Assembly (NCBI GenBank): GCA_017640725.1
Contig: JAEPQB010000001.1
Span: 434,001 to 498,000, forward strand
Direction of reading: 5' to 3'
Origin: Kordiimonadaceae bacterium
Lineage (GTDB): Bacteria; Pseudomonadota; Alphaproteobacteria; Sphingomonadales; Kordiimonadaceae
DNA length: 64,000 bases
Made by a program: the position numbers and the translations under genes. The notes under the pieces were generated by a model that was not told the origin of the DNA, made no database searches, and saw only the letters and a list, made by a program, of their open reading frames with translations. Positions within the stretch are counted from its first letter, which is position 1, and every line of letters begins with the position of its first letter. Shown in pieces: positions 48,457 to 62,851 of the stretch.

Positions 48457-51021
48457 CTACAGGATCAGATACTCTGAACTCAGATCCTGCGCCTCGACAC
48501 CTTGCAGGAGCACGCTATCGCCAGCGCCAAGGTCAATCAAAAGACCGTCTGTTGTCTCAGTGGCTGCCGCCAACACATCCTCCAGAGAGGTAAAGTCGGT
48601 AGCAGTGGAGCTGAGATCGAGCCAGTCACGGTCATAGTCTGTGATGACATCGTCGCCTGAACCTTCACCAAATACGAAGGTGTCAGACCGGGCACCGCCT
48701 GTGAGCGTGTCGTCGCCCGCGTTACCACGTATCCAGTTGGCCTGGCTGTTCCCGGTGAGAACATCATCAAACGCACTGCCATCAAGATTGTTGATACGCA
48801 GCAGAGTATCGCCTTCGGCATAACCGCCAGATGCGGTACCAGCCGCCAGATCCACTTGAACGCCTGCGTCTGACATGCGGTAATCAGCTTCATCAACACC
48901 GCGGCCGCCGTTGAGCACATCAGCACCTTCACTGCCATACAGTGTGTCATTGCCATTGCCACCAGCGAGCGTGTCATCGCCTCCACGGCCCCAGAGCTTG
49001 TCATCGCCACCAGCGCCCGACAGACGGCTGCCAGTGTCGATTGCCCACAGGGTGTCATCGCCCGTGCCAGATGTTACACTTTCGATGTTGATGAGCGTAT
49101 CACCCTCAGCAAATCCACCGCGGGCTTCGCCGGTTTGCAGGTCGACAAAAATATCGGCGTCGTCACGGACATAATTGGCACTATCTGCACCGCCACCGCC
49201 ATTAAGCGTGTCGGCACCGTCGTCGCCAAACAGGACATCACCGCGAGCGCCACCGTTTAGGACATCGTCACCAAGGCTACCCAACAGCACATCGTTGCCA
49301 GCGCCGCCGTCAAGAACATCATCACCGCGTCCACCGCGCAGTTCATCATCGCCTTCGCCGCCGTTGATCACGTCATCATCACGGCCGCCGACGAGGAAAT
49401 CGTTGCCGGCAGCACCATTGATGCTGTCGTCACCTCGGTCGCCAATGAGTGTGTCATCACCAGCAGTGCCATTGATGGCTTCTGCAGTGTTGTCGCCGTT
49501 GACCGTGATGTCGGTGAAGACAAAGTTGTCAGCAGAAAAGTCAGCCAAAGCGTCGGCAGCGTCCGTTCCGGTCAAGTCTGTATGACGGGCAATAATGCTC
49601 AGGTCAGCATTGGCGTCTGACAAATCCGACGAGTAAACCAAGCGGTTTACGCCGAGGTTCGAATTCAAATACACAAACACGCCTGGGCCAGGCTCGCTGA
49701 CCAAATCGGCGATTTGGCTTGCCGCTGTTCCCGCCAGGAATGGTGTTTCGCTGTCACCGTCGTTGTCCGTATTGAGAAGGACGATTACATTTGCGCCTTC
49801 TGGAATTTCGGCAAAGTCTGACGACAGATCGACAGCAGCAAAGCTGACATCACCTTCAATGCCAAAGTCTGCTGCATTCAGTGAAAACACATCAATGTTG
49901 GTGTCACTCTCAATGGAGCCGTTTGCCCGTGCGTCAGCGAGGATATCGACTACGACGCCGCCATTTTCACCTTCTGGTGCATTGTGCAAGTGACCAACTG
50001 TCAATCGCGCTTCGTTAAAGTTTTCAAGCTCGATAGAAGTGGTGTACGTCACGTCGCCATTGGTGGCCACGTCAAACGTGATTGTTGCAAAACCTTCTGC
50101 ATCGGTTTCAACGGCTGGGTCTTGCACTTCAGCTTCACCTGTTAACTCTGCACGGAATGAGACGGTGCCGTAGCCATTGGCGTCACGATCATCCGAAACC
50201 AACTCAAGTTGGCCGCGCAGTTCACCCGCCGGGAAGTCAGTGGAATGAATGTTGAAGTAGATGTTGCCGTCTACAGCCTCTGACAACACTTCTGAAGTTG
50301 TGTCTGCTTCATCAACGGTGATTTCCACCGTTGGGACACCAAAGCTGTTACCTACTGAGCCATCAACTGCAGCATCCGCCAGCAGGTCAACAACCACCGG
50401 GCCGTTTTCGCCTTCAGGCGCATTGTGCAAGTGGCCCACAGTGAGACGATCTTCATCAAAGTCTGCAACGTCGATGCTTGTCGTGTATGTCACATCGCCG
50501 TTTTCTGCCACGGTAAAGGTAATGCTGGCTGTGCCCTCAGCATCAGTCTCAACTGCTGGGTCTTGCACTTCATTCGCACCGTTCAGCACAGCAGAAAAAG
50601 TGACATCGCCGTATCCATTTTCATCACGGTCGTCAGAAACCAAAGTCAATTGGCCACGTACTTCACCCGCCGGGAAATCTGTTGAGTGCAAATTGTAGTA
50701 AATGTTGCCGGCAACGGCTTCTGCGAGCACTTCGCTGGTTGTGGCCGCGTCATTCACTTCAATCTCGAGGATTGGAACACCGATCGTAAAATCCGTCAGA
50801 AAATCTTCGTTTCCGATAACCTGGCGGCCTTCAGCAGAAACGTCACCACCGTCAAATGGGTCACCCTCATATGCGATGGTATCGTCGCCAATACCGCTCG
50901 TGATTGTATCGGCTCCGCCCAGACCTGTAATGCGATCGTCTTCATTTGTACCATTAAGCACTTCTGCATCGCCGCTACCGCTTATGGTCGCCGCCCGTGT
51001 GCTTTCAAACTTATCAAACAT
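48457..51021 (-). CDS. Secreted RTX protein with tandem CHRD repeats
   Basis: 854 residues, very acidic and without cysteine. After an RTX-like N-terminus (GSGDAEVLNG, GLGGADTI) come two tandem units of 147 residues (about 94-240 and 241-371) with CHRD-domain signatures: HSTDFPAGE.RGQL, EVQDPAVETDAEG and LTVGHLHNAPEGENG. The units also repeat in the DNA. A linker domain (about 372-520) precedes many calcium-binding nonapeptides of the form GGxGxDxLx (about 525-800), and the C-terminus (SSEYLIL) fits a type I secretion signal. AAGGAGAG precedes the ATG. No ABC exporter, HlyD or TolC gene is nearby. Its role is probably a surface or released adhesin or matrix protein; this is inference. Confidence 0.88.
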   Translation of the reverse strand: MFDKFESTRAATISGSGDAEVLNGTNEDDRITGLGGADTITSGIGDDTIAYEGDPFDGGDVSAEGRQVIGNEDFLTDFTIGVPILEIEVNDAATTSEVLAEAVAGNIYYNLHSTDFPAGEVRGQLTLVSDDRDENGYGDVTFSAVLNGANEVQDPAVETDAEGTASITFTVAENGDVTYTTSIDVADFDEDRLTVGHLHNAPEGENGPVVVDLLADAAVDGSVGNSFGVPTVEITVDEADTTSEVLSEAVDGNIYFNIHSTDFPAGELRGQLELVSDDRDANGYGTVSFRAELTGEAEVQDPAVETDAEGFATITFDVATNGDVTYTTSIELENFNEARLTVGHLHNAPEGENGGVVVDILADARANGSIESDTNIDVFSLNAADFGIEGDVSFAAVDLSSDFAEIPEGANVIVLLNTDNDGDSETPFLAGTAASQIADLVSEPGPGVFVYLNSNLGVNRLVYSSDLSDANADLSIIARHTDLTGTDAADALADFSADNFVFTDITVNGDNTAEAINGTAGDDTLIGDRGDDSINGAAGNDFLVGGRDDDVINGGEGDDELRGGRGDDVLDGGAGNDVLLGSLGDDVLNGGARGDVLFGDDGADTLNGGGGADSANYVRDDADIFVDLQTGEARGGFAEGDTLINIESVTSGTGDDTLWAIDTGSRLSGAGGDDKLWGRGGDDTLAGGNGNDTLYGSEGADVLNGGRGVDEADYRMSDAGVQVDLAAGTASGGYAEGDTLLRINNLDGSAFDDVLTGNSQANWIRGNAGDDTLTGGARSDTFVFGEGSGDDVITDYDRDWLDLSSTATDFTSLEDVLAAATETTDGLLIDLGAGDSVLLQGVEAQDLSSEYLIL
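49909..50742 (-). repeat. Tandem 441-bp CHRD coding repeats
   Basis: Two in-frame units encode near-identical 147-residue blocks starting TTSEVLAEAV and TTSEVLSEAV (unit 1 about 50742-50302, unit 2 about 50301-49909). The block boundaries fall inside a CHRD domain, so the first unit follows a bare C-terminal half. Confidence 0.8.
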
Positions 51022-51179: not shown

Positions 51180-52373
51180 TCAGGAAATTTTGCACGCAGA
51201 ATGTTTGAACAGACCGGCGCCAAATGTTTCATCGTGCCCTTGTGGACCAAGGTCCCGGCTGGAAGCAGACAACATCGCTTTTGCATTGTTGATCGAAGGA
51301 ATATCGTTTGGGTTCACAGTTGCTGCCAACTGAGCCGTAACGAACGGAGCGGCAAAAGATGTGCCTGTGATGTATCGACCAGTGCCTGTGCCCGCGACAA
51401 AAACATCGACGCCAGGAGCAGAAATATCGATATGATCGCCCTGGACGGCCTTGCGATAAATCGCACCGCGAGCGTCAACAGCTGTAACTGCAATCACTTC
51501 GGGAAAGGCTGCCGGGAATTTTTGGGAAGACTCTGGGCCGCCATTGCCTGCAGCGGCCACCATAATCACGCCTTGGTCAGAGGCGTATTGAATTCCCTGG
51601 TCAAGAATCTTGTTGTAGGGGCCAGCAAGGCTGATGTTCACAACCATCACACCTTCGGATACCAGCCAGTCCAGGGCTCTCAAAATATCCGAAACACCGG
51701 CAGAGGCTTGACCATTCACGTCGTGGCTTACCACCGCAGCACTGAAGAGTTTGGCATTGTTGAGACGACCGCCACCCACCAACAGCTCTGCCACGGCAGT
51801 TCCATGCCAGTCCGTTTCCTGGCTTGGCCTGCTACTGAATTGTTTTTGGGTGATATGGGCTTGTTGCAAAACCAAAGCATCAAGGTCAACCGAGGCATCA
51901 ATGATGCCTAATGGCAACTGTGCCGGGCAACCTGCAGCCGGCCAACCAATAAGCCGGCTCGCATACGTGCGCCTGAAAACGGCTTCATTATTAATCTCTT
52001 GCGCGGTCAACGGCTCTGTCTGATAGGTATAGCGGTGATTGACACCAGCCGTTGCGCCTGGTTCCAGGGCTTCAACCTCGTTGATGGCAAGGCCGCCTTC
52101 GAGGCCTTCTGGAAGTTCGAACACCATCATGATTGTGCCTAGGCCACCTAGTGGTTCCTGCGTTTTCAGTCGGTATCCTCTGGTATAGGTTTGTGTATCC
52201 AGCCACACAGCTGCGTCTGTGGTCCCAACGAGCACAACAAGTTCGCGCCGATCAATCACCGCGTTTTCGTCGCCTTCGATCTCACTCACAGGCGCGAGTC
52301 TGAGGGACGGCTGTGTGCAAGCCGCCAACACAAAAAGCGCCGCAATCGAAAGGCTTTTTAAGCTATGGGTCAT
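51180..52373 (-). CDS. Lipoprotein subtilase (S8 serine protease)
   Basis: 397 residues from the ATG at 52373; the longer frame lacks a signal. A lipoprotein signal ends in LAAC (Cys19 lipidated), so the enzyme is anchored to a membrane in the periplasm. Residues about 45-115 (TRGYRLKTQEPL, VFELPEGLEGGLA) resemble the propeptide-like domain of subtilases. The S8 triad is Asp159 (GIIDAS), His190 (WHGTAVAELL) and Ser339 (GTSFAAPF). It lies between the RTX gene and a porin on the same strand, near the ECF sigma/anti-sigma pair. Such S8 genes are often found beside sigma/anti-sigma genes, so a link to signalling is possible but not shown. Confidence 0.87.
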   Translation of the reverse strand: MTHSLKSLSIAALFVLAACTQPSLRLAPVSEIEGDENAVIDRRELVVLVGTTDAAVWLDTQTYTRGYRLKTQEPLGGLGTIMMVFELPEGLEGGLAINEVEALEPGATAGVNHRYTYQTEPLTAQEINNEAVFRRTYASRLIGWPAAGCPAQLPLGIIDASVDLDALVLQQAHITQKQFSSRPSQETDWHGTAVAELLVGGGRLNNAKLFSAAVVSHDVNGQASAGVSDILRALDWLVSEGVMVVNISLAGPYNKILDQGIQYASDQGVIMVAAAGNGGPESSQKFPAAFPEVIAVTAVDARGAIYRKAVQGDHIDISAPGVDVFVAGTGTGRYITGTSFAAPFVTAQLAATVNPNDIPSINNAKAMLSASSRDLGPQGHDETFGAGLFKHSACKIS

Positions 52374-52449
52374 CAGGTCATTTCTCGCATCTGCAGGGAC
52401 AGTTGCTGGTATGTCGTAACAACGCGCTCTTCGGTTCAATTTTTGCCAA

Positions 52450-53794: not shown

Positions 53795-53865
53795 CGGCAG
53801 TGTGGTTTTGGATCATTCAACAAAGCGTGATCAGCAAAGTGCGCTGGTAGCTTATGGAGAAAGAA

Positions 53866-54456
53866 ATGCCTCAGGACGAAGGCCTGACAATTCGGTTAGC
53901 TGACTATGTTCGCGGGACATTGACGGACGAAGAACGCGCCCAGGTAGAGGCTGACGCGGCGGCTGACCCTATGGTCGCGGCTGAACTCGCGACCCTAAAA
54001 GGTGTCGCGTCTGCTCTCAAATCGGACACCCCTCCCATTGCAGGCAAAGAGTTTGGGTGGGCACGCCTGTCGCGGGCAATTGATGCAGAGGCGGCAAGCT
54101 CGGCTGCCTCTTCAAATATTGTAAAGTGGCAAATCGCTGCAGCGATTTTTGGATTTTTGGCGGTTGGACAGACCCTTGTATATACATCGGGCTTTTTTGA
54201 CTCCGCGGAAGATCAGTTTGGTCTTGCTGGTGAGCAATCTGTAGCTCAGTCTTGGAGTATTCAGGTTTCGTTTGCTCAGAACGCTCCCATTGCGGAAATC
54301 GAGCAGCTGTTGCAGGAAAACGGCGGCCGTATTTCTGACGGTCCTTCTGCGATTGGGTTGTACCGCATCACCTTTGACAGTGAAGAATCTCGCAATGCAG
54401 CGCAACAAGCATTCCAGGATGCCTCAATCGTTCTTGAATCCACCATCAGCGACTAA
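53866..54456 (+). CDS. Transmembrane anti-sigma factor
   Basis: 196 residues from the ATG at 53866, preceded by GGAGAAAG; an in-frame ATG 12 bp upstream is also possible. The cytoplasmic N-terminus RLADYVRGTLTDEERAQVEA resembles a sigma-binding domain, but it has no Cys/His zinc motif. One membrane segment follows (IAAAIFGFLAVGQTLVYTSGFF), then a periplasmic domain of about 70 residues (IQVSFAQNAPIAEIEQLLQE, GGRISDGPSAIGLYRITF) with a ferredoxin-like strand-helix-strand pattern similar to I9 propeptides. It is tail-to-tail with the ECF sigma gene, 12 bp apart, the likely partner. The odd convergent layout is noted in the findings. Confidence 0.78.
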   Translation: MPQDEGLTIRLADYVRGTLTDEERAQVEADAAADPMVAAELATLKGVASALKSDTPPIAGKEFGWARLSRAIDAEAASSAASSNIVKWQIAAAIFGFLAVGQTLVYTSGFFDSAEDQFGLAGEQSVAQSWSIQVSFAQNAPIAEIEQLLQENGGRISDGPSAIGLYRITFDSEESRNAAQQAFQDASIVLESTISD

Positions 54457-54468
54457 GCAATCCAAATA

Positions 54469-55014
54469 CTACAAATGAAAGCTTCCCAAACATTGCATCA
54501 GTAGTTTTTTAGCGTGAAAAATGCGGGTCTTGATGGTCCCAACCGCAGCATTCTCAATATCACCGATTTCTCCGTATGGCAGGTCCTCAAAAAAAGCGAA
54601 GTGAACCACGCGGCGGTGGCTGTCGCTAAGTTTGTCAATACAGGCTCGCACGCGTTCGGCATCCTGGCTTGCGGCCACAATTGACTGGGCATCTGGCGCA
54701 TCGTCAACTTGTTCATGCTGTTGATCGGTTAAATCCATCCGCCCAAGTTTGCGCCTCAAGTCTATCGCCTTGTTTCGTGCAATGCTGAACATCCATGACC
54801 GCACAGCCGACCGACCAGAGAACTTATCGGCGGTTTGCCAAACTGCGACCATTGTTTCCTGAACAATGTCAGAGGCCTCGTGTTCATCTTTACAGTGTGA
54901 GTAGGCGAACCTGTAAAGCGTATCATAGTGACGGTGATAAAGCTCCTTAAGCGCCGCTTTATCTTTGCGGGCCACCGAGGCTAAGAGCTCACTATCAGTC
55001 TTGGAAGAAACCAT
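54469..55014 (-). CDS. ECF-type RNA polymerase sigma factor
   Basis: 181 residues. Region 2 is LYRFAYSHCKDEHEASDIVQ with the promoter-melting part SVVRSW-like sequence (AVRSWMFSIARNKAIDLRRK), and region 4 is KLSDSHRRVVHFAFFEDLPY with GEIGDIENAAVGTIKTRIFH. There is no sigma region 3, as in ECF factors. It faces the anti-sigma gene tail-to-tail instead of sharing an operon. The heme oxygenase and phytochrome genes lie just beyond. Regulon and stimulus cannot be read from sequence. Confidence 0.92.
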   Translation of the reverse strand: MVSSKTDSELLASVARKDKAALKELYHRHYDTLYRFAYSHCKDEHEASDIVQETMVAVWQTADKFSGRSAVRSWMFSIARNKAIDLRRKLGRMDLTDQQHEQVDDAPDAQSIVAASQDAERVRACIDKLSDSHRRVVHFAFFEDLPYGEIGDIENAAVGTIKTRIFHAKKLLMQCLGSFHL

Positions 55015-55148: not shown

Positions 55149-55772
55149 CTAAAGAATGATTTCTGCGATTGCCGCGAATGTGTTCCTGGCTCCCTGGACA
55201 ATTTCGTCCTCTGGTTCACCACTGTCTTTGAATTCTTCGAGGCACTCACAGAAGGAACGCCACTCCTGCGCATCCGTCGAACGCGACAAATACTGGCACG
55301 GCCATTTTTCGTCATCAATCTGAGACGACATGGCCTTGAAAATTTGTCGATTTCCATTTGAAGATCCAGCCAAAACATACAGGCCACCAAGCGCCTGATA
55401 GCTGTTGGCATATGCAAAATTGGCAGTAGTTGCATCGCCTAAAAACTCAGAGGCGTCAGACTGAACAAAGCAATTCAGGTCAAGCCGCAACAATGGCGCA
55501 TATTCATATTTATGGAGGTCAACAATATCCTGAAGTTCGGATTTGAAGGCAGAAAGAGCCGCTTCACATGCGGATCGATAATTGAATGTATGCCGCAAAA
55601 ATCCAGCGTAGTGCTCAACATTAGCTGCCCCAGTGATTAATATAGATACCAAGGGCCACTGGTTGAGTTGCTCATGTACATCATGAGTAGATTTTTGTAG
55701 GCGCTTCCTAAGCGAAACTTCGCCAAAATCTGTGTCTGTCACAAGCATGGTGTTTAGGCCGCGTACCATCAT
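55149..55772 (-). CDS. bphO: Heme oxygenase, biliverdin-forming, phytochrome-associated
   Basis: 207 residues from the ATG at 55772, preceded by GGGAGGGGGCG; longer in-frame starts lack this. Heme oxygenase opens haem to biliverdin, the bilin chromophore used by bacteriophytochromes. The proximal-His motif is LRKRLQKSTHDVHEQLN, and the rest has the all-helical length and layout of bacterial heme oxygenases (YQALGGLYVLAGSSNG forms the distal helix glycine region). It is divergent from the phytochrome gene, 90 bp apart, the common BphO-BphP pairing. The product would fill the phytochrome part of the adjacent receptor. Confidence 0.88.
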   Translation of the reverse strand: MMVRGLNTMLVTDTDFGEVSLRKRLQKSTHDVHEQLNQWPLVSILITGAANVEHYAGFLRHTFNYRSACEAALSAFKSELQDIVDLHKYEYAPLLRLDLNCFVQSDASEFLGDATTANFAYANSYQALGGLYVLAGSSNGNRQIFKAMSSQIDDEKWPCQYLSRSTDAQEWRSFCECLEEFKDSGEPEDEIVQGARNTFAAIAEIIL

Positions 55773-55862
55773 TAACGGCCACGCCCCCTCCCTGGTCACA
55801 TTTGCCAAAACCACTGAAGCAGTTTAGGCTGATCATTCCTCACCGGGGAATGTAGAGGATAT

Positions 55863-58800
55863 ATGCCAGGGACCACAACAGTTTTAACCAACCCCACTTC
55901 TGTGGTCGCGTTGGATAAAATAAATCGTTTGAGCAATGATGAACTCGATCAAGTACCGATTGGTGTGATCGAGCTTGATGCCAATGGCACCATTTGTTTT
56001 TACAACGCGACCGAAGCCAAAATGAGCGGCCGCGACGCCAAAAAGGTGGTTGGCAAAAACTTTTTCCATGAAATCGCGCCTTGCACAAACATTCCCCAGT
56101 TTAATGGACGGTTTGTTACTGGCGTGCAGTCAGGCAAACTCCAAGAGCAGTTCGTTTTCAACTTTGATTTTGAAATGACACCGCCGGTAAAAGTCGTGGT
56201 GGAATTGCATGATGGTCGTCAACCTGGCAAATATTGGCTGTTTACAAAAGTAATCCAGCAGCATGACGATAGTGTTCCAGACCTCAGCGTAAGTGACTTG
56301 ATCGTCTCAAAAACCAGCGGCGCAAGTGCGGAAGAATTTTGCGCGAGTGAGCCAATTGCCACGCCAGATAAAGTTCAGTCCTGGGGCGCGTTGGTCACCA
56401 TTAACCTGGACAAAGAGTGTATCATCGGGCGCTCAGAGAATTTCTGGGAAATCCTCTCTTACCAGAAAGCAGATGATATTCTGGATGAACCGCTAACTGC
56501 GGTTTTCCAAGAAGAAGACATCCTTTTGTGCCGTGCATTATCAAAAGATTCGTCAAAGGAGCAACCTGTCGTCCAACATAAACTGACGAAACTCAATGTT
56601 TCTGATGAATATGTCGATCTCCGGTTTGTGGCCAAAGGCAATATTGTTTTTGTGGAAATCACAATCGCCGAGCAATCGGGGCGGGTCAGTATTCTCCCAA
56701 GAGAAATCCTTGATTTCAACACGCATTTGTCTTCTCGGGCAACAGTCGAAGACTTGTGCCAAGAATTGGTTCGATTGCTGCAAAAAATAACCGGGTTTGA
56801 ACGGGTAGTTGCTTACAGGTTTTCCCCAAACTGGGAAGGCCAAACAATTGCGGAAGCAATGCGCGCCGACAGCAAGCTGCCAAGCTTTCAAGACCTGTAT
56901 TTTCCTGCAAGTGACATCCCGCCCCAGGCGCGCGCCATGCACGAACGCATCCTGACTTCCTTCACCCCAAGTCGGGACTATGTGGCAAGCGACATGGCCC
57001 TTGCGAGCGGTGCGCCAGCAGAAGCGCGCAACCTTGAAGGCGTGCACTTGAGGTCGGTTTCACCTGTAAGGGCGGTGTATCACAAAACTATTGGAGTGAA
57101 CGGCTCCGCGACATGTTCCCTCAAAGTCGGCGGCAAACTATGGGGCATGGTTATTCTGCATGATAGCTTGCCTCATCATTTGAATTATAGCCAGAAAGTC
57201 GCCCTCGCCACACTGACACAAACAGCCTCCAGCAGGCTCGAATTGTTAATCGCTCAAGATAAGAAACAGCGCCAGATCGGTGCAAGGAAGACGCTAAAAG
57301 TAATACTCGACGCGATCTCAGCCTCAGACAGTTTGACCGACGCCACCCTTGGCAAGGGTCAGACAAATGTCATGAGTATATTCAACTGCAGTGGCGCGGC
57401 TATTTGGATCGACGATGAATGGAGAACAGTTGGCTCGACGCCACCGCCACACCTTATCAACAAGCTTGCGACAAAAGTCTCCAATGACGAATCTGTTACT
57501 GTCTGGGGCAATGATTGCCTTTCGGAATTTATTGCAGACTTTAAAGAGTACGCTACAGAGGCCTCTGGGGCGGTTTTTGCTGCACCAATTCCCGGGGACA
57601 AGCGACACGCCATAATATGGTTTTTTCCTGAGCGGGTGATCAAAAAGGACTGGGCAGGCAACCCAACAGAAAAACTCCATTTTGAAAATGTCTCTGGCAA
57701 GGAAATGGTCCTGCCGCGCCTGTCATTTGCAAAATGGACAGAGTTTACGTCATATCGTTCTTTACCAATTGGTGATGATCTATTGGAAATTGCCGAAGAC
57801 CTGCGTGTGGCGTTAGGCGGATATTTAGCGCGGCGAAGCCGGCAATTGGCAGACCTCTCAACCCAATTGCAGAACAGAAATTCCTTCCTTTCTGCAGTTT
57901 TAGACTCGCTTACATCAGCAATTTTCACTTTCGAAACAGACGGCACGATTTTGAGCGCCAATGTGGTAGCGGGCAAGATGTTTGGGTGCGCTGAAGATGA
58001 TTTTGTGGGCACGAATTTTCGGGATTTGTTTGATGAAGAAAACATCTCGGAGCTTGCCGAGGCCCGTGCAGACCTGGACGCAGGCAAGCTTGTCCGGGCC
58101 ATGTTCACAAAAACGGACAAAACCAAATTTTTGGGTGCGCTGTCGACTGGTAAGTGGGTGCGGTCTTCAGTTGAGATGAGAGTAGCAACAATCCGTGATA
58201 TTTCGGATATGGAGTTGCTCGAACAAAATGCCTACCGTCAGAGCAAATTGGAGGCAATCGGGCAAATCACCAGTTCCATTGCCCACGATTACAACAATTT
58301 TCTCGCAATAATTTCAGGTAACCTTGAACTTATTTCGATGCTGTCGTCAGACGACAAAGTAACAGCCCGCGTGACACCAGCTCTAAACGCGGTGCAGCGT
58401 GCCAGTGGTTTGACAGACAAACTTTTGTCGTTGGTACGAACCCGAACCCCAAAAACCGAGGTCGTCAATATTTCGCGCACCATCGACGACTGCCGCGATT
58501 TATTGCATTCCACTTTGGGCGCGGCGCATGATCTGGAAATTTCATACGCTGACAATGAGACGCAGGTTTTGGCTGAGCGCGGCCAGATTGAGAACTCTTT
58601 GGTCAACCTGCTTAATAACGCGCGCGACGCCATGCACGGCGAAGGCTGTGTACAAATTGACGTCCTGCCACTGGACCCATTGACTGGATTGGTGCCCGTT
58701 GTTGTGCGTGACAATGGTGAGGGGATGAGTGATGACCAAGTCAAAAACGCTACAGAACCCTTCTTTACAACGAAAGACCCAGGTTCAGGGAGTGGTTTGG

Positions 58801-59345
58801 GTCTAAGCGCCGTGCAAAGAGACCTGAATGCCATCGGCGGGCAACTGGACTTAAAAAGTGAAGAAGGTACTGGCACGGCTATTACCATGAAATTCCCTGG
58901 CTCGGATCTCGCGCCCCAAAGCAGGCAGGCTGATACTTCAGGTATTTTTGAACCATCCATCTTTCAAGGCAAACGACTTCTGCTTGTTGACGACGAGCAG
59001 TCACTTCATGACACTCTGCATGCATTGCTAAATCACCTTGGACTTGACGTTACAACAGTGTCGTCTCAGGCGGCTGCCTTAAAAGAATCTGACAAACCTG
59101 GAACGATTGACTTTGTTCTTTCAGATGTGAACTTGAAAGAGGGCCCCGTTGGATTTGACCTTGTGCAAAGCCTGGTGCGAAAAATGCCAAATACTGTTGG
59201 CATGTGCATGAGCGGCAGTGACTGCAGCAAAATCAGTGAGGCAAACCGGCACGGCATTCCTTTACTCAATAAGCCTTTCCAGGTTGACACATTTGTTAAA
59301 ATCGCGACCGAAGCGCAAACTAGTCAATCTGATAAAGAAGGTTAA
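55863..59345 (+). CDS. ppr: PYP-bacteriophytochrome hybrid histidine kinase
   Basis: 1160 residues. Residues about 20-132 are a photoactive yellow protein domain with the chromophore Cys74 (IAPCTN) and pocket residues Tyr47, Glu51, Ser55 and Arg57, matching Tyr42, Glu46, Thr50 and Arg52 of Halorhodospira PYP. A phytochrome core follows: PAS with biliverdin Cys160 (CASEPIATP), GAF (about 295-460, PASDIP with Asp351, Tyr318, Tyr406, His433) and PHY with PRLSF at 618-622. Then come a PAS (about 675-775), a HisKA with His808, an ATPase domain (NLLNNARDAM, DNGEGM, GSGLGL) and a C-terminal receiver with Asp1088 and Lys1137. This is the architecture of Rhodospirillum centenum Ppr plus a receiver. 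Neighbouring bphO supplies biliverdin; no tyrosine ammonia lyase for p-coumarate is visible. Confidence 0.93.
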   Translation: MPGTTTVLTNPTSVVALDKINRLSNDELDQVPIGVIELDANGTICFYNATEAKMSGRDAKKVVGKNFFHEIAPCTNIPQFNGRFVTGVQSGKLQEQFVFNFDFEMTPPVKVVVELHDGRQPGKYWLFTKVIQQHDDSVPDLSVSDLIVSKTSGASAEEFCASEPIATPDKVQSWGALVTINLDKECIIGRSENFWEILSYQKADDILDEPLTAVFQEEDILLCRALSKDSSKEQPVVQHKLTKLNVSDEYVDLRFVAKGNIVFVEITIAEQSGRVSILPREILDFNTHLSSRATVEDLCQELVRLLQKITGFERVVAYRFSPNWEGQTIAEAMRADSKLPSFQDLYFPASDIPPQARAMHERILTSFTPSRDYVASDMALASGAPAEARNLEGVHLRSVSPVRAVYHKTIGVNGSATCSLKVGGKLWGMVILHDSLPHHLNYSQKVALATLTQTASSRLELLIAQDKKQRQIGARKTLKVILDAISASDSLTDATLGKGQTNVMSIFNCSGAAIWIDDEWRTVGSTPPPHLINKLATKVSNDESVTVWGNDCLSEFIADFKEYATEASGAVFAAPIPGDKRHAIIWFFPERVIKKDWAGNPTEKLHFENVSGKEMVLPRLSFAKWTEFTSYRSLPIGDDLLEIAEDLRVALGGYLARRSRQLADLSTQLQNRNSFLSAVLDSLTSAIFTFETDGTILSANVVAGKMFGCAEDDFVGTNFRDLFDEENISELAEARADLDAGKLVRAMFTKTDKTKFLGALSTGKWVRSSVEMRVATIRDISDMELLEQNAYRQSKLEAIGQITSSIAHDYNNFLAIISGNLELISMLSSDDKVTARVTPALNAVQRASGLTDKLLSLVRTRTPKTEVVNISRTIDDCRDLLHSTLGAAHDLEISYADNETQVLAERGQIENSLVNLLNNARDAMHGEGCVQIDVLPLDPLTGLVPVVVRDNGEGMSDDQVKNATEPFFTTKDPGSGSGLGLSAVQRDLNAIGGQLDLKSEEGTGTAITMKFPGSDLAPQSRQADTSGIFEPSIFQGKRLLLVDDEQSLHDTLHALLNHLGLDVTTVSSQAAALKESDKPGTIDFVLSDVNLKEGPVGFDLVQSLVRKMPNTVGMCMSGSDCSKISEANRHGIPLLNKPFQVDTFVKIATEAQTSQSDKEG

Positions 59346-59733
59346 AGAGCGCCTTAAAATTAACCGGCTTGGAAAACGATCCGCAGCAGTTCAAACCGTA
59401 TCCGACGGCCAGGTCCTGCATCGATTTCATTGTCGCTTCGCTGCATGAAGATATGAAACACACGTGGCCGGTAAAATCTAACTCTTTAAGAAACCCAAGC
59501 GCGTTAACGCCGTCATACTCAGGCATGTAAACATCCAGAAAGACTAGCGACGGGCTGTGCTTGTTTATCGCGGATTCAAAATCCTGTTTGTTGTTTACCG
59601 CGTACGCATCCCAGCCACAAATTTCAGCAAAATCAGCCAGCAGACTGGCCAGATCACGCAGGTCATCCAATACCACCAACGTTTTGGGGTTGGAGAGGGG
59701 AAACAAACTGCGCCTCATGGGAAGTTCCGTCAT
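59320..59733 (-). CDS. Stand-alone response-regulator receiver protein
   Basis: 137 residues and no output domain. The receiver has the acidic pair in VVLDDLRDL, the phosphoacceptor Asp in LVFLDVYMPEYDG and Lys in FSKPVNF. Its 3' end overlaps the end of the photoreceptor gene on the opposite strand by 26 bp. It may receive phosphate from that kinase or pass it to another protein. No other kinase is nearby. The start could be 59733 or 59718. Confidence 0.85.
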   Translation of the reverse strand: MTELPMRRSLFPLSNPKTLVVLDDLRDLASLLADFAEICGWDAYAVNNKQDFESAINKHSPSLVFLDVYMPEYDGVNALGFLKELDFTGHVCFISSCSEATMKSMQDLAVGYGLNCCGSFSKPVNFKALFNLLYQID

Positions 59734-59885: not shown

Positions 59886-60605
59886 GTGACGATCCACAAG
59901 ATACTCATCGTCGATGACGAGCCAGATTTGCGCAACGCAGTCCGGGGAATCTTTGAACTCAATAGTTTCGAAGTTTTCGAGGCCCATACCCTTGCCCAGA
60001 TGTGGATCACGCTTCGGGAAAAGCCAGACATTGATGTGGTTCTGCTCGACCTCAATCTGCCTGATGGTGATGGCCTGCAAACCTGCGGAAAAATTCGCAA
60101 CGAGTTTGATTGCGGCATCATAATCACCACCGGGCGAAACGATCATATCGACAAGATTATTGGCCTTGAATCCGGGGCTGACGATTATGTTTGCAAACCG
60201 GTTGAACTGCGCGAACTGGTAGCGCGAGCGAGGTCGGTTATCCGGCGATCCAGTCCGCCTGAGGATTTGACGCAAAAAACGCTTTATCGATTCTCGGATT
60301 GGACGTTTGACCCGGCCATCTGGAAGGCCGAAAACCGACGGTCTGGATCTGTCACGATGACACGTTTTGAAAGCCTGTTGTTGCAAATCCTGCTTGAACA
60401 TGCGGGCGCCCCCGTCAGCCGAGACAAATTGACGTCGAGCCTGTCGGGCCATAGTGCGCAAGCTTTTGATCGCAGCATTGATAACCTTGTTAGCAGAGTG
60501 CGCAAAAAACTGTCTCTGACAATGGACGGTGATGTGGCGATCAAGTCCGTACGCGGCATTGGCTATCAATTCTCCGGTGACGTTCATGCAGAAGTCCAGA
60601 ATTGA
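59886..60605 (+). CDS. OmpR-family DNA-binding response regulator
   Basis: 239 residues from a GTG preceded by AGGGGG. The receiver domain (about 5-115) has DDEP, the phosphoacceptor Asp in VVLLDLNLPDGDG and Lys in VCKPVELRE. The C-terminal winged helix (about 140-230) has TRFESLLLQILLEHAGAPVSRDKL and RSIDNLVSRVRKKL, ending IKSVRGIGYQF. It lies just after the photoreceptor kinase and lone receiver on the plus strand, so I infer that it is their transcriptional output. Its DNA targets are unknown. Confidence 0.93.
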   Translation: MTIHKILIVDDEPDLRNAVRGIFELNSFEVFEAHTLAQMWITLREKPDIDVVLLDLNLPDGDGLQTCGKIRNEFDCGIIITTGRNDHIDKIIGLESGADDYVCKPVELRELVARARSVIRRSSPPEDLTQKTLYRFSDWTFDPAIWKAENRRSGSVTMTRFESLLLQILLEHAGAPVSRDKLTSSLSGHSAQAFDRSIDNLVSRVRKKLSLTMDGDVAIKSVRGIGYQFSGDVHAEVQN

Positions 60606-60913
60606 GAAGTCCCTGGCACTATTGTTTGCGCACGCAAGAAACACAGCAAGCATCCCACAGTGGGTTTCAATCACTCTAGGCTAGTTGCAAAATTGTAATC
60701 AAACTGGTGAAACTGTAACGAATTGTAGCTCAGCAGGCCCGGAATTCGTCAAAAAGCGCGCCCCTGAATGAATAATTTGATCACCGCAATCATTAGCCTT
60801 TTAGTTTCAATGCATTAAGCGCATTACACTTTATTACAATTTTCCACTTTGCATCACATTTGAGCTCGTACCCTGCAAGAAATCAGCAACTTTTGGGGTA
60901 CGAGGAACCTGCT
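60606..60913 (+). promoter_or_regulatory. Region upstream of the PAS chemoreceptor gene, with leader hairpin
   Basis: 308 bp without a gene, AT-rich in its second half. Just before the start codon, CGTACCC (60867-60873) pairs with GGGTACG (60896-60902), a perfect 7-bp stem with a 22-base loop. It abuts the AGGA ribosome site at 60903, so it may affect translation. No clear promoter boxes were found. Confidence 0.45.
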
Positions 60914-62851
60914 ATGAATATGCAATCCAACTTAGACCTTCAGGCAATTGAAGAAGATGCCAATACCGCCGCTTTAAAATCCTCCACTGGGCTCGCTGGC
61001 TTGTTTGGCGGTGTATTCGCCAATGATTCAAGCGCGAAGCTCGCTGCACTTGATTCAGCCATGGCAACGATCGAATTCAAGCCTGACGGAACGATCCTGA
61101 AGGCAAATCGCAATTTCCTGATGGCAACTGGTTACCAGGAACATGAAATCATTGGTCAACATCACAGCATATTTGTTTCAAAAGTGGAAAAAAACAGCCC
61201 CGAGTACCAAAGCTTCTGGGCTGACCTGGCGAGTGGACGGTCACATGTTTCCAGTTTCAAGCGCGTTGGCAAAGATGGCGGCGACATATGGATACAGGCT
61301 GCTTACACGCCCATAAAAAACTCCGTGGGCAAGGTCGTAAAAGTCTTCAAGGTTTGCTCTGACATTACAGCGGCGAAGCAAGAGGCCGAAGCAAGCCAAA
61401 GGGATGTTGTTGCTATCAGTAAATCTCTCGCCATGATCGAATTTACCCCTGACGGGATTATTAGACATGCAAACGAAAACTTCCTGAACGTTATGGAGTA
61501 CTCGCTGGACGAAATTGTTGGTCAGCACCACCGGATGTTCGTAGATAAAAAATATGGCACCAGCGACGAATACAAAGAATTCTGGGATCACCTTAAGTCG
61601 GGCCAAGACCATGTCTCTGAATTCCAACGATTTACCAAATCAGGCAAGCCGGTTTGGATTCAGGCGAGCTATAGCGCTGTTGTAGACGCGCAGGGCAATG
61701 TCGCGAAGGTCGTCAAAGTTGCTTCTGATATTACAGCCGCAAAAACGACGGCAGCAGACCATCAAGGGCAGATAGAAGCCATCAACCGGTCACAAGCGGT
61801 TATTCACTTTGAATTGGACGGCACCATAATTGAAGCCAATGATGCCTTCAACCAGGCTGTTGGATACGATCTCGAAGAAATTGTTGGCCAGCACCACAAA
61901 ATTTTTATGCCTTCGGCGGAGAGAGATTCGGTCGAGTATAAAAACTTCTGGGAAGACCTTCGAAAAGGCAAATTCCAGCAAGGTGAATTCTGTCGGGTCA
62001 ACAAAGCTGGCGAAGATCTTTGGATCCAGGCGACATACAACCCAATTCTGGATGCGGAAGGCAATCCAATCAAAGTTGTCAAGTTCGCAACTGATATCAC
62101 TGATATGGTTCAGCGGCGGCACAACAGACAGAACGCCCAGAAAAAAATAGCTCGGGACCTTGGCTCTGTGTCTGAGGCTGTAGCAACCGCTAAAAACAGT
62201 TCTGCAGAAGCAGCTGCTGCTTCGTCGCAGGCCTCAAATAATCTGCAGGCGGTGGCGTCAGGCGCGGAAGAGATGAATTCTGCTATCCAAGAGATTGCCA
62301 CCAGCATGACCCGCTCTCGCGAAACCGCTGACGCGGCAGCTGATAAAGTTCGCATGGCCAACAAAGCCAGTGAACAGTTTCTCGAAGCGGCCCGCGCCAT
62401 GGGACAAATCGTGGAACTAATTCGCGGCATTGCAGGCCAAATCAACTTGCTGTCCTTAAATGCAACGATCGAATCCGCCCGCGCTGGCGAAGCCGGAAAA
62501 GGGTTTGCAGTAGTTGCAAGCGAAGTCAAAAGTCTTGCCCGCCAAGCGGCCGACGCAACAGACCGCGTTGCCGCCGAGATTGAAGGCGTGCAATCCGCTT
62601 CTGAAGAAGTTGATCAGTCCCTCAATGTCATTTCTGAATCGCTCGAGTCAGTACGTGAATATGTGGTCGGCACTTCCAGCGCTGTTGAAGAACAAAGCGC
62701 GGTGGCCAGAGAAATTTCAGCAAACATGCAAGAAGCCACCAGCGGTGTGGAAAATGTAACTGACCTTATGCAGAAAATCGCAGAACAAACAGCGCTTGCA
62801 GATACTTCAGTTGAAAGCGTCGCGGAACAAAGCCAACGAATGGCCAACTAA
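60914..62851 (+). CDS. Soluble triple-PAS methyl-accepting chemotaxis protein
   Basis: 645 residues from the ATG at 60914, preceded by GAGGA. Three PAS domains of about 120 residues (about 45-170, 170-290, 295-415) share the pattern [20 protein letters not shown] and [10 protein letters not shown] signalling domain follows with the hairpin tip [23 protein letters not shown]. No membrane segment, HAMP domain or periplasmic part is visible, so the receptor is cytoplasmic. PAS domains can bind haem, FAD or other cofactors; none is named by sequence. It stands alone after the photosensor cluster, with no che genes nearby. Aer-like redox or light-related taxis is possible. Confidence 0.92.

Follow-up and report, generated by a model that had tools for sequence, protein, structure and literature searches.

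A hybrid histidine kinase with photoactive yellow protein and bacteriophytochrome domains from a Kordiimonadaceae bacterium, and its candidate response regulator

The signal chain behind photoactive yellow protein (PYP) is named as an important gap in the abstract of PMC12826048. We analysed a 64,000-nucleotide stretch of a Kordiimonadaceae genome (GCA_017640725.1, contig JAEPQB010000001.1, positions 434,001 to 498,000; hereafter the window), which carries on its forward strand a gene (55863-59345) for a protein of 1160 aa that joins a PYP domain to a bacteriophytochrome, a PAS domain, a histidine kinase and a receiver. This raised the question of which light inputs such a protein could use and where its signal would go. 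An earlier note, made from the sequence alone, had proposed a two-colour light switch in a heterotroph. We favour, with moderate rather than high confidence, reading the protein as a light-regulated hybrid histidine kinase of the cytoplasm, from a branch sister to Ppr, in which the red half bleaches, the blue half is either conditional or silent, and output goes to an adjacent OmpR-type regulator. PYP-phytochrome kinases are known as a type, and what appears to be new here is a branch with another output module, not a new class. The host genome (G000) comprises 4.04 Mb in 14 contigs and is rated 100% complete. In agreement with the note, which had seen no photosynthesis genes in the window, the genome gave no match to the photosynthetic reaction centre family PF00124 (other light-driven systems were not searched), which is found in 7 of 59 relatives.

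The gene is one uninterrupted frame, running from the ATG at 55863 to a stop codon that ends at 59345. Scans with Pfam and NCBIfam profiles gave the domain order PYP, PAS_2/GAF/PHY, PAS, HisKA, HATPase_c and receiver. The PYP domain (residues 20-129, 55920-56249) is followed by the N-terminal phytochrome PAS (residues 160-239, 56340-56579; PAS_2 PF08446, E 1.3e-14), whose first residue is the putative biliverdin cysteine Cys160, and by the GAF (residues 295-454, 56745-57224; PF01590 and column comparison) and PHY (residues 477-658, 57291-57836; PF00360, E 6.5e-31) domains. The third PAS (residues 687-782, 57921-58208; PAS_9 PF13426, E 1.5e-13) leads into a HisKA domain (residues 800-860, 58260-58442; PF00512) with His808 in the motif HDYNNF as its putative phospho-acceptor, a HATPase_c domain (residues 912-1012, 58596-58898; PF02518, E 5e-17) and a C-terminal receiver (residues 1040-1146, 58980-59300; PF00072, E 7.7e-9, 36.1 bits against a cut-off of 30.2), where Asp1088 (LSDVNL) is the putative acceptor. 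The motifs of a hybrid kinase are all present, being what we take to be the H, N, G1 and G2 boxes and, in the receiver, the acid pocket, aspartate, Ser/Thr and lysine. The architecture given in the earlier note is therefore borne out by the scans and motifs, with HisKA as the one domain that scored under its cut-off. When the whole chain was compared with the PDB, phytochrome photosensory cores matched best, among the best 60 of 170 distinct sequences. We also considered the third PAS as a LOV domain and rejected this by eye, as it has none of what we take to be the LOV-type cysteine motif. The G+C content of the gene is 0.489, against 0.519 for the window, and lies within the spread of the window's 3.5-kb stretches (0.482-0.556); that of the PYP part is 0.458.

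Residues 20-129 match the photo_yellow model TIGR02373 with an E-value of 1.7e-36 (125 bits), and among solved structures residues 1-135 are matched best by 1mzu, a PYP domain named PPR (E 1.4e-32); 33 distinct PDB sequences reach E ≤0.001. A single-sequence AlphaFold model of residues 1-148 alone reached a pLDDT of 38. The PDB alignment sets the numbering at Halorhodospira +5, and the chromophore pocket is intact: Tyr47, Glu51, Arg57 and Cys74 (codon 56082-56084) take the places of Halorhodospira Tyr42, Glu46, Arg52 and Cys69, as had been claimed from the sequence. The same four residues are kept in a second genome (G024, of another genus in the same family), even though the two PYP domains are only 46% identical. 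At 23 of the 27 positions taken from section 5 of PMC12826048 (Leu15, Asp24 and positions above 100 left out) the window residue is identical. The position of Halorhodospira Thr50 is a serine in the window. As the same section gives absorption near 434 nm for two PYPs with Ser50, the window PYP, if loaded, would probably absorb there as well.

To place the protein we followed PYP through the genomes related to the host. TIGR02373 matches at E ≤1e-10 in 6 of the 59 relatives; within the genus, the window's own genome is the only one of 19 with a match. Wider draws at E 1e-12 gave 14 PYP genomes among 396 from the order, 9 among 385 from the class and 5 among 398 from the phylum, with the window's own genome counted every time, and yielded 26 distinct PYP genomes in all. 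PYP is fused to a phytochrome in seven of them (the window's, G024, G189, G363, G918, G897 and G1013). The other 19 were judged by frame length, most being under 200 aa, except for G739, G413 and G207, which were judged by Pfam; G544, classed by length, encodes a protein 72% identical to that of G413. Among 72,556 plasmid records, only NZ_CP030128.1 of Indioceanicola profundi matched 80% of residues 1-660. The proteins of G189, G363, G918, G897, G1013 and Indioceanicola are Ppr types of 865-891 aa with the order PYP-PAS-GAF-PHY-HisKA_2/HWE-HATPase, and have neither a third PAS nor a receiver. The window's own order was found elsewhere only in G024, where contig ends cut the gene in two: the PYP domain ends contig C111, and PAS-GAF-PHY-PAS-HisKA-HATPase-receiver starts contig C169, two pieces that we infer to be one gene. 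Identity between the window and G024 proteins is 38% over the PAS-GAF-PHY core, 36% over the kinase and 30% over the receiver. A scan of a genome-contig collection with the full protein gave seven loci matching at most residues 661-1151 (PAS-kinase-receiver), none of them a PYP-phytochrome.

In a tree of 18 PAS-GAF-PHY cores, a branch with support of 100/99 separates all eight PYP-fused cores from the ten without PYP, in keeping with common descent of the fused sensing halves. Its outgroup was drawn from the host's relatives and plasmid matches, its rooting was not tested, and it holds no Ppd-type proteins. On the PYP side the window and G024 form a pair (100/100) beside the six HWE-kinase Ppr types (99/98). 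That the two represent a separate branch of PYP-phytochrome kinases with a different output module is well supported by these sequence comparisons, and a single fusion, after which the output half was exchanged, would be the simplest reading.

The window protein thus shares with Ppr of Rhodospirillum centenum and its relatives the N-terminal PYP, the PAS-GAF-PHY core with its PAS cysteine and a histidine kinase, and its core groups with the sampled Ppr cores, but it has HisKA, a third PAS and a receiver where the six examined Ppr types have HisKA_2/HWE alone; R. centenum Ppr itself was compared only as a 129-aa PDB chain. Ppd of Thermochromatium tepidum, compared through the literature, has a similar PYP and phytochrome sensing half. 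However, as described in parts of PMC9664959, Ppd has a GGDEF/EAL output for c-di-GMP turnover instead of a kinase and receiver, and its PYP carries E46Q where the window has Glu. PYP-less hybrid bacteriophytochromes, such as those of G010 in the host's genus and of a Methylobacterium radiotolerans plasmid (whose receiver falls just under the cut-off), also combine PAS-GAF-PHY, kinase and C-terminal receiver, but they lack PYP and their cores lie on the opposite side of the tree. The output half itself resembles PAS-HisKA-HATPase-receiver kinases, here placed behind a PYP-phytochrome: the PRK13557 and CckA models score 184 and about 150 bits, far below their cut-offs of 631 and 1000, and 2,229 plasmid records match it at E 1e-5, the 12 listed among them with 29-31% identity over 96-99%. 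The earlier note had called PYP-phytochrome fusions rare, which overstates the case, as PMC12826048 counts 52 such proteins, including 37 that have kinases. In its Table 2 the HWE-HK fusions number 37 and the REC fusions five, the latter described as Rec-PYP. Among the open PMC papers listed in our searches, none describes in its title or abstract opening a PYP-phytochrome hybrid kinase with a receiver.

In the red half the PAS cysteine is present in all 18 phytochrome sequences compared, and the window core also keeps the aspartate of the DIP motif, the Tyr176 and Tyr263 equivalents and the PRxSF tongue (PRLSF). The GAF histidine two residues past SP is, however, Arg403 in the window (codon AGG, 57069-57071) and His in the other 17 sequences, G024 included. 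This column was assigned by motif, and we take it to be that of DrBphP His260 and Agp1 His250. A recent single-base error was rejected as the source of Arg403, since AGG differs from CAT and CAC at all three bases. The Arg403 substitution makes it doubtful that the protein undergoes ordinary red/far-red conversion. DrBphP His260 and Agp1 His250 are treated as equivalent in the relevant passage of PMC8570541, and according to passages of PMC3197147 Agp1 H250A and D197A stop at bleached photoproducts, and R. centenum Ppr bleaches. The histidine is a usual but not an indispensable feature of bacteriophytochromes. For the window phytochrome a bleached photoproduct is probably to be expected rather than Pfr. 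A natural His-to-Arg change in the bilin pocket would allow the role of this residue to be tested in a native protein.

The genes on either side bear on both the supply of bilin and the output. A heme oxygenase gene (55149-55814, minus strand; PF01126, E 5.7e-10), for which the ATG at 55748 looks by eye the likelier start, diverges from the kinase gene. Heme oxygenase genes adjoin the PYP-phytochrome gene in all seven genomes with the fusion; three of the seven pass PF01126, and the remaining four were identified by a model built from these three, at E ≤1e-19. They lie divergently upstream in the window and G024 only, whereas in the five Ppr genomes they are downstream on the same strand. Section 7 of PMC9664959 states that PYP-phytochrome neighbourhoods always include heme oxygenase; the 13.9 kb Indioceanicola stretch, in which none was found, speaks against such a general rule.

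On the other side an OmpR-type response regulator (59886-60605, plus strand; PF00072 and PF00486) begins 540 bases after the kinase stop in the window, and a counterpart with 46% identity begins 112 bases after the stop in G024. When the G024 regulator was searched against the window's own genome, the window regulator was the top of 31 matches, at 208 bits against 104 for the next. Unlike the window, the five Ppr types showed no matching OmpR regulator near the PYP-phytochrome gene (flanks of 3-7 kb); the Indioceanicola stretch gave nothing beyond a short receiver that matches over 59 residues, and a 31% match lies at the G182 locus, in a PYP genome without the fusion. This adjacent regulator, common to the window and G024, was missed by the earlier note. 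We regard it as the likely output of the kinase and thus as a candidate for the partner that has been missing. With a DNA-binding regulator beside a PYP-phytochrome kinase in two genera, a signal chain open to testing would be at hand. Promoter-like sites between 55000 and 60900 were not in excess (6 found, 6.0 expected), and terminator-like sites in the same interval (13 against 7.1 expected, s.d. 2.9) were not used as evidence. Short direct repeats upstream of the kinase showed by eye no motif common to the window and G024, so we propose no binding site for the regulator.

Whether the blue half can be loaded depends on p-coumarate, and the earlier note had pointed to tyrosine ammonia lyase and p-coumaryl ligase as a check. 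Neither was found in the host. PF00221, the family of tyrosine, histidine and phenylalanine ammonia lyases, has no match in the host genome or in G024 (93% complete). It is present in 39 of 59 relatives and in 11 of 19 genomes of the genus, so the lack of a match is not unusual there. Three relatives with single-domain PYPs (G054, G029 and G030) encode a lyase near the PYP gene on its contig, and a fourth (G039) has no PF00221 lyase in its genome. For the ligase we built a model of the short PYP-type enzyme from seven sequences adjoining PYP genes; the G054 ligase, scanned among these seven, matches TIGR02372 (4-coumarate-CoA ligase) at 263.6 bits, below the cut-off of 334.7. The model was run on 28 genomes, the 26 with PYP and two PYP-less controls that gave no strong match. 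A ligase above 300 bits was found in 14 of the 19 PYP genomes without the fusion (seven of the 14 by construction; those without a match are G206, G207, G385, G413 and G544) and in none of the seven PYP-phytochrome genomes, host and G024 included, where the best match was about 60 bits (Fisher p 0.0012, the genomes being related and not independent). The usual loading enzyme is thus as a rule not found in the sampled PYP-phytochrome genomes, and not just in the host.

The host has 12 PF00501 proteins at E 1e-10. Nine match the PYP-type ligase model, and we rejected the set as PYP-type ligases because the best reached 66.9 bits, against at least 307 for 12 ligase reading frames in PYP loci (seven by construction). 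Their nearest NCBIfam families (for eight of them judged from the best 25 families each) are fatty-acid and other acyl-CoA ligases, with acetate, methylthiopropionate and steroid-24-oyl types and fatty acyl-AMP ligase further among them. According to section 8 of PMC12826048, pyp operons contain a tyrosine ammonia lyase in 5% and a p-coumarate:CoA ligase in 32% of cases, and uptake of p-coumarate from the environment is allowed for; its abstract and sections 3 (part 1), 5, 6 and 8 hold no statement on ligase-less PYP-phytochrome genomes. p-Coumarate from outside, with a general CoA ligase, or some other route may supply the host PYP. The earlier note had named, as telling against its claim, a host without a route to p-coumarate together with a protein that binds no blue-absorbing chromophore; the first half of this applies as far as the known endogenous route is concerned, since neither lyase nor ligase was detected.

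These observations suggest the following scheme. The neighbouring heme oxygenase would make biliverdin, which would attach to Cys160 and be isomerised by red light, and Arg403 in place of the pocket histidine would probably lead to a bleached, deprotonated photoproduct and not to a stable Pfr. Cys74 could carry a p-coumaroyl thioester. Because the known PYP enzymes were not found in the host, the blue input would probably depend on external p-coumarate and a general CoA ligase, or be silent. Both inputs would converge on His808, whose autophosphorylation they would modulate via the PAS linker. Phosphate would then pass to Asp1088 of the receiver and from there, directly or via an HPt protein, to the neighbouring regulator of the OmpR type, with a change in transcription of its target genes as the result.

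How the two halves are used can be read in other ways. A classical two-colour switch, in which p-coumarate made by the cell routinely loads PYP while the phytochrome switches from Pr to Pfr and back, seems to us quite improbable. The part of the earlier proposal that stood is that both sensor domains are present, with a PYP pocket kept in two diverged proteins and with the biliverdin cysteine and a heme oxygenase in place; the part that is weakened is the routine operation of both, as no lyase or PYP-type ligase was found in host and G024 and an arginine stands where the conserved histidine is expected. That these enzymes were not found would suit a PYP domain that is an empty or re-purposed PAS module, serving dimerisation, redox sensing or another ligand and leaving red sensing only. 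Two of five Ppr types (G897 and G1013) have indeed lost the cysteine, and redox sensing is proposed for some methylobacterial Ppr proteins in parts of PMC9664959. We consider this unlikely but to be taken seriously: long disuse would not explain why the four pocket residues are kept in both the window and G024, and it can be argued that the pocket is still in use, because five of the seven PYP-phytochrome proteins keep the cysteine. A ligase found in none of the seven genomes, yet a cysteine kept in five, raises the question of where the chromophore comes from, or whether the blue half is used at all. One speculative answer, which we rate as doubtful, is that the PYP half is a conditional sensor in a cell that neither makes p-coumarate nor retains the dedicated ligase: its kept pocket would work only when this phenolic of plants or algae arrives from outside and a general CoA ligase loads it, so that the kinase would report light and phenolic together, here to a dedicated OmpR-type regulator.

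It is also conceivable, though unlikely, that the receiver is a phosphate sink or gate, that the OmpR-type regulator belongs to another system and that the output lies elsewhere, for example in a triple-PAS chemoreceptor (MCP, 60860-62851) directly after the regulator, or in a convergent single-domain receiver (59320-59733, minus strand; PF00072, E 2.4e-9) that overlaps the 3' end of the kinase gene. Kinase and regulator are separated by the 540-base gap and the convergent gene, and a passage of PMC2993699 reports that the kinase domain of R. centenum Ppr binds the chemotaxis protein CheW, so a functional tie to the adjoining MCP is possible. Against this, the regulator stands beside the G024 kinase as well, and the G024 stretches gave no match to the PAS-MCP protein. 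The convergent receiver had no matched counterpart in the fetched PYP loci, and its membership of the system is uncertain.

Several results weigh against the reading we favour, that of a Ppr sister branch with a bleaching red half and a neighbouring OmpR-type output. The window HisKA scored 20.8 bits, under the Pfam cut-off of 26.9, and in G024 both HisKA (24.0 bits) and the receiver (27.1 bits, over profile positions 1-60 of 111, cut-off 30.2) also fall short. The PYP score is below the NCBI equivalog cut-off of TIGR02373 (143.05 bits); three cysteine-bearing Ppr-type PYPs fail it too (G189 133, G363 129 and G918 123 bits), so it does not separate the window branch from Ppr. The tree has long branches, and the window row has an odd composition. 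The low identity of the kinases and receivers of the pair would fit an output module of old origin or one exchanged in part. The heme oxygenases of the window and G024, at only 26% identity, are not established as orthologues, and co-transcription of kinase and regulator is doubtful because the intervening gap holds the convergent receiver gene. Finally, R. centenum Ppr bleaches although the histidine is retained in the Ppr types examined, so bleaching does not require Arg403 and may be a general property of PYP-phytochromes rather than an effect of this residue.

Other arrangements were seen at the fetched PYP loci. In G739 (L091:6924-8852) a PAS-PAS-HisKA-HATPase protein carries a C-terminal PYP and lies beside a PYP-type ligase reading frame. 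C-terminal PYPs on long proteins, with Gln at the Glu46 position, occur in G413 (L092:4884-6770), where the protein also has an MCP signalling domain, and in G544 (L093:7505-9259); these genomes are small (1.6 and 1.3 Mb; 91 and 79% complete), and no PYP-type ligase was found in them. On the Indioceanicola profundi plasmid (L102:8858-11955) SIR2 and TIR-domain genes stand beside the PYP-phytochrome gene. Within the window, an ECF sigma factor gene (54469-55014) is convergent with a 200-aa reading frame without a Pfam match (together 53854-55014), which, as a guess by eye, may encode an anti-sigma factor. Further upstream, 48457-51021 encodes a protein that combines CHRD domains with RTX calcium-binding repeats, beside a subtilase gene (51180-52439).

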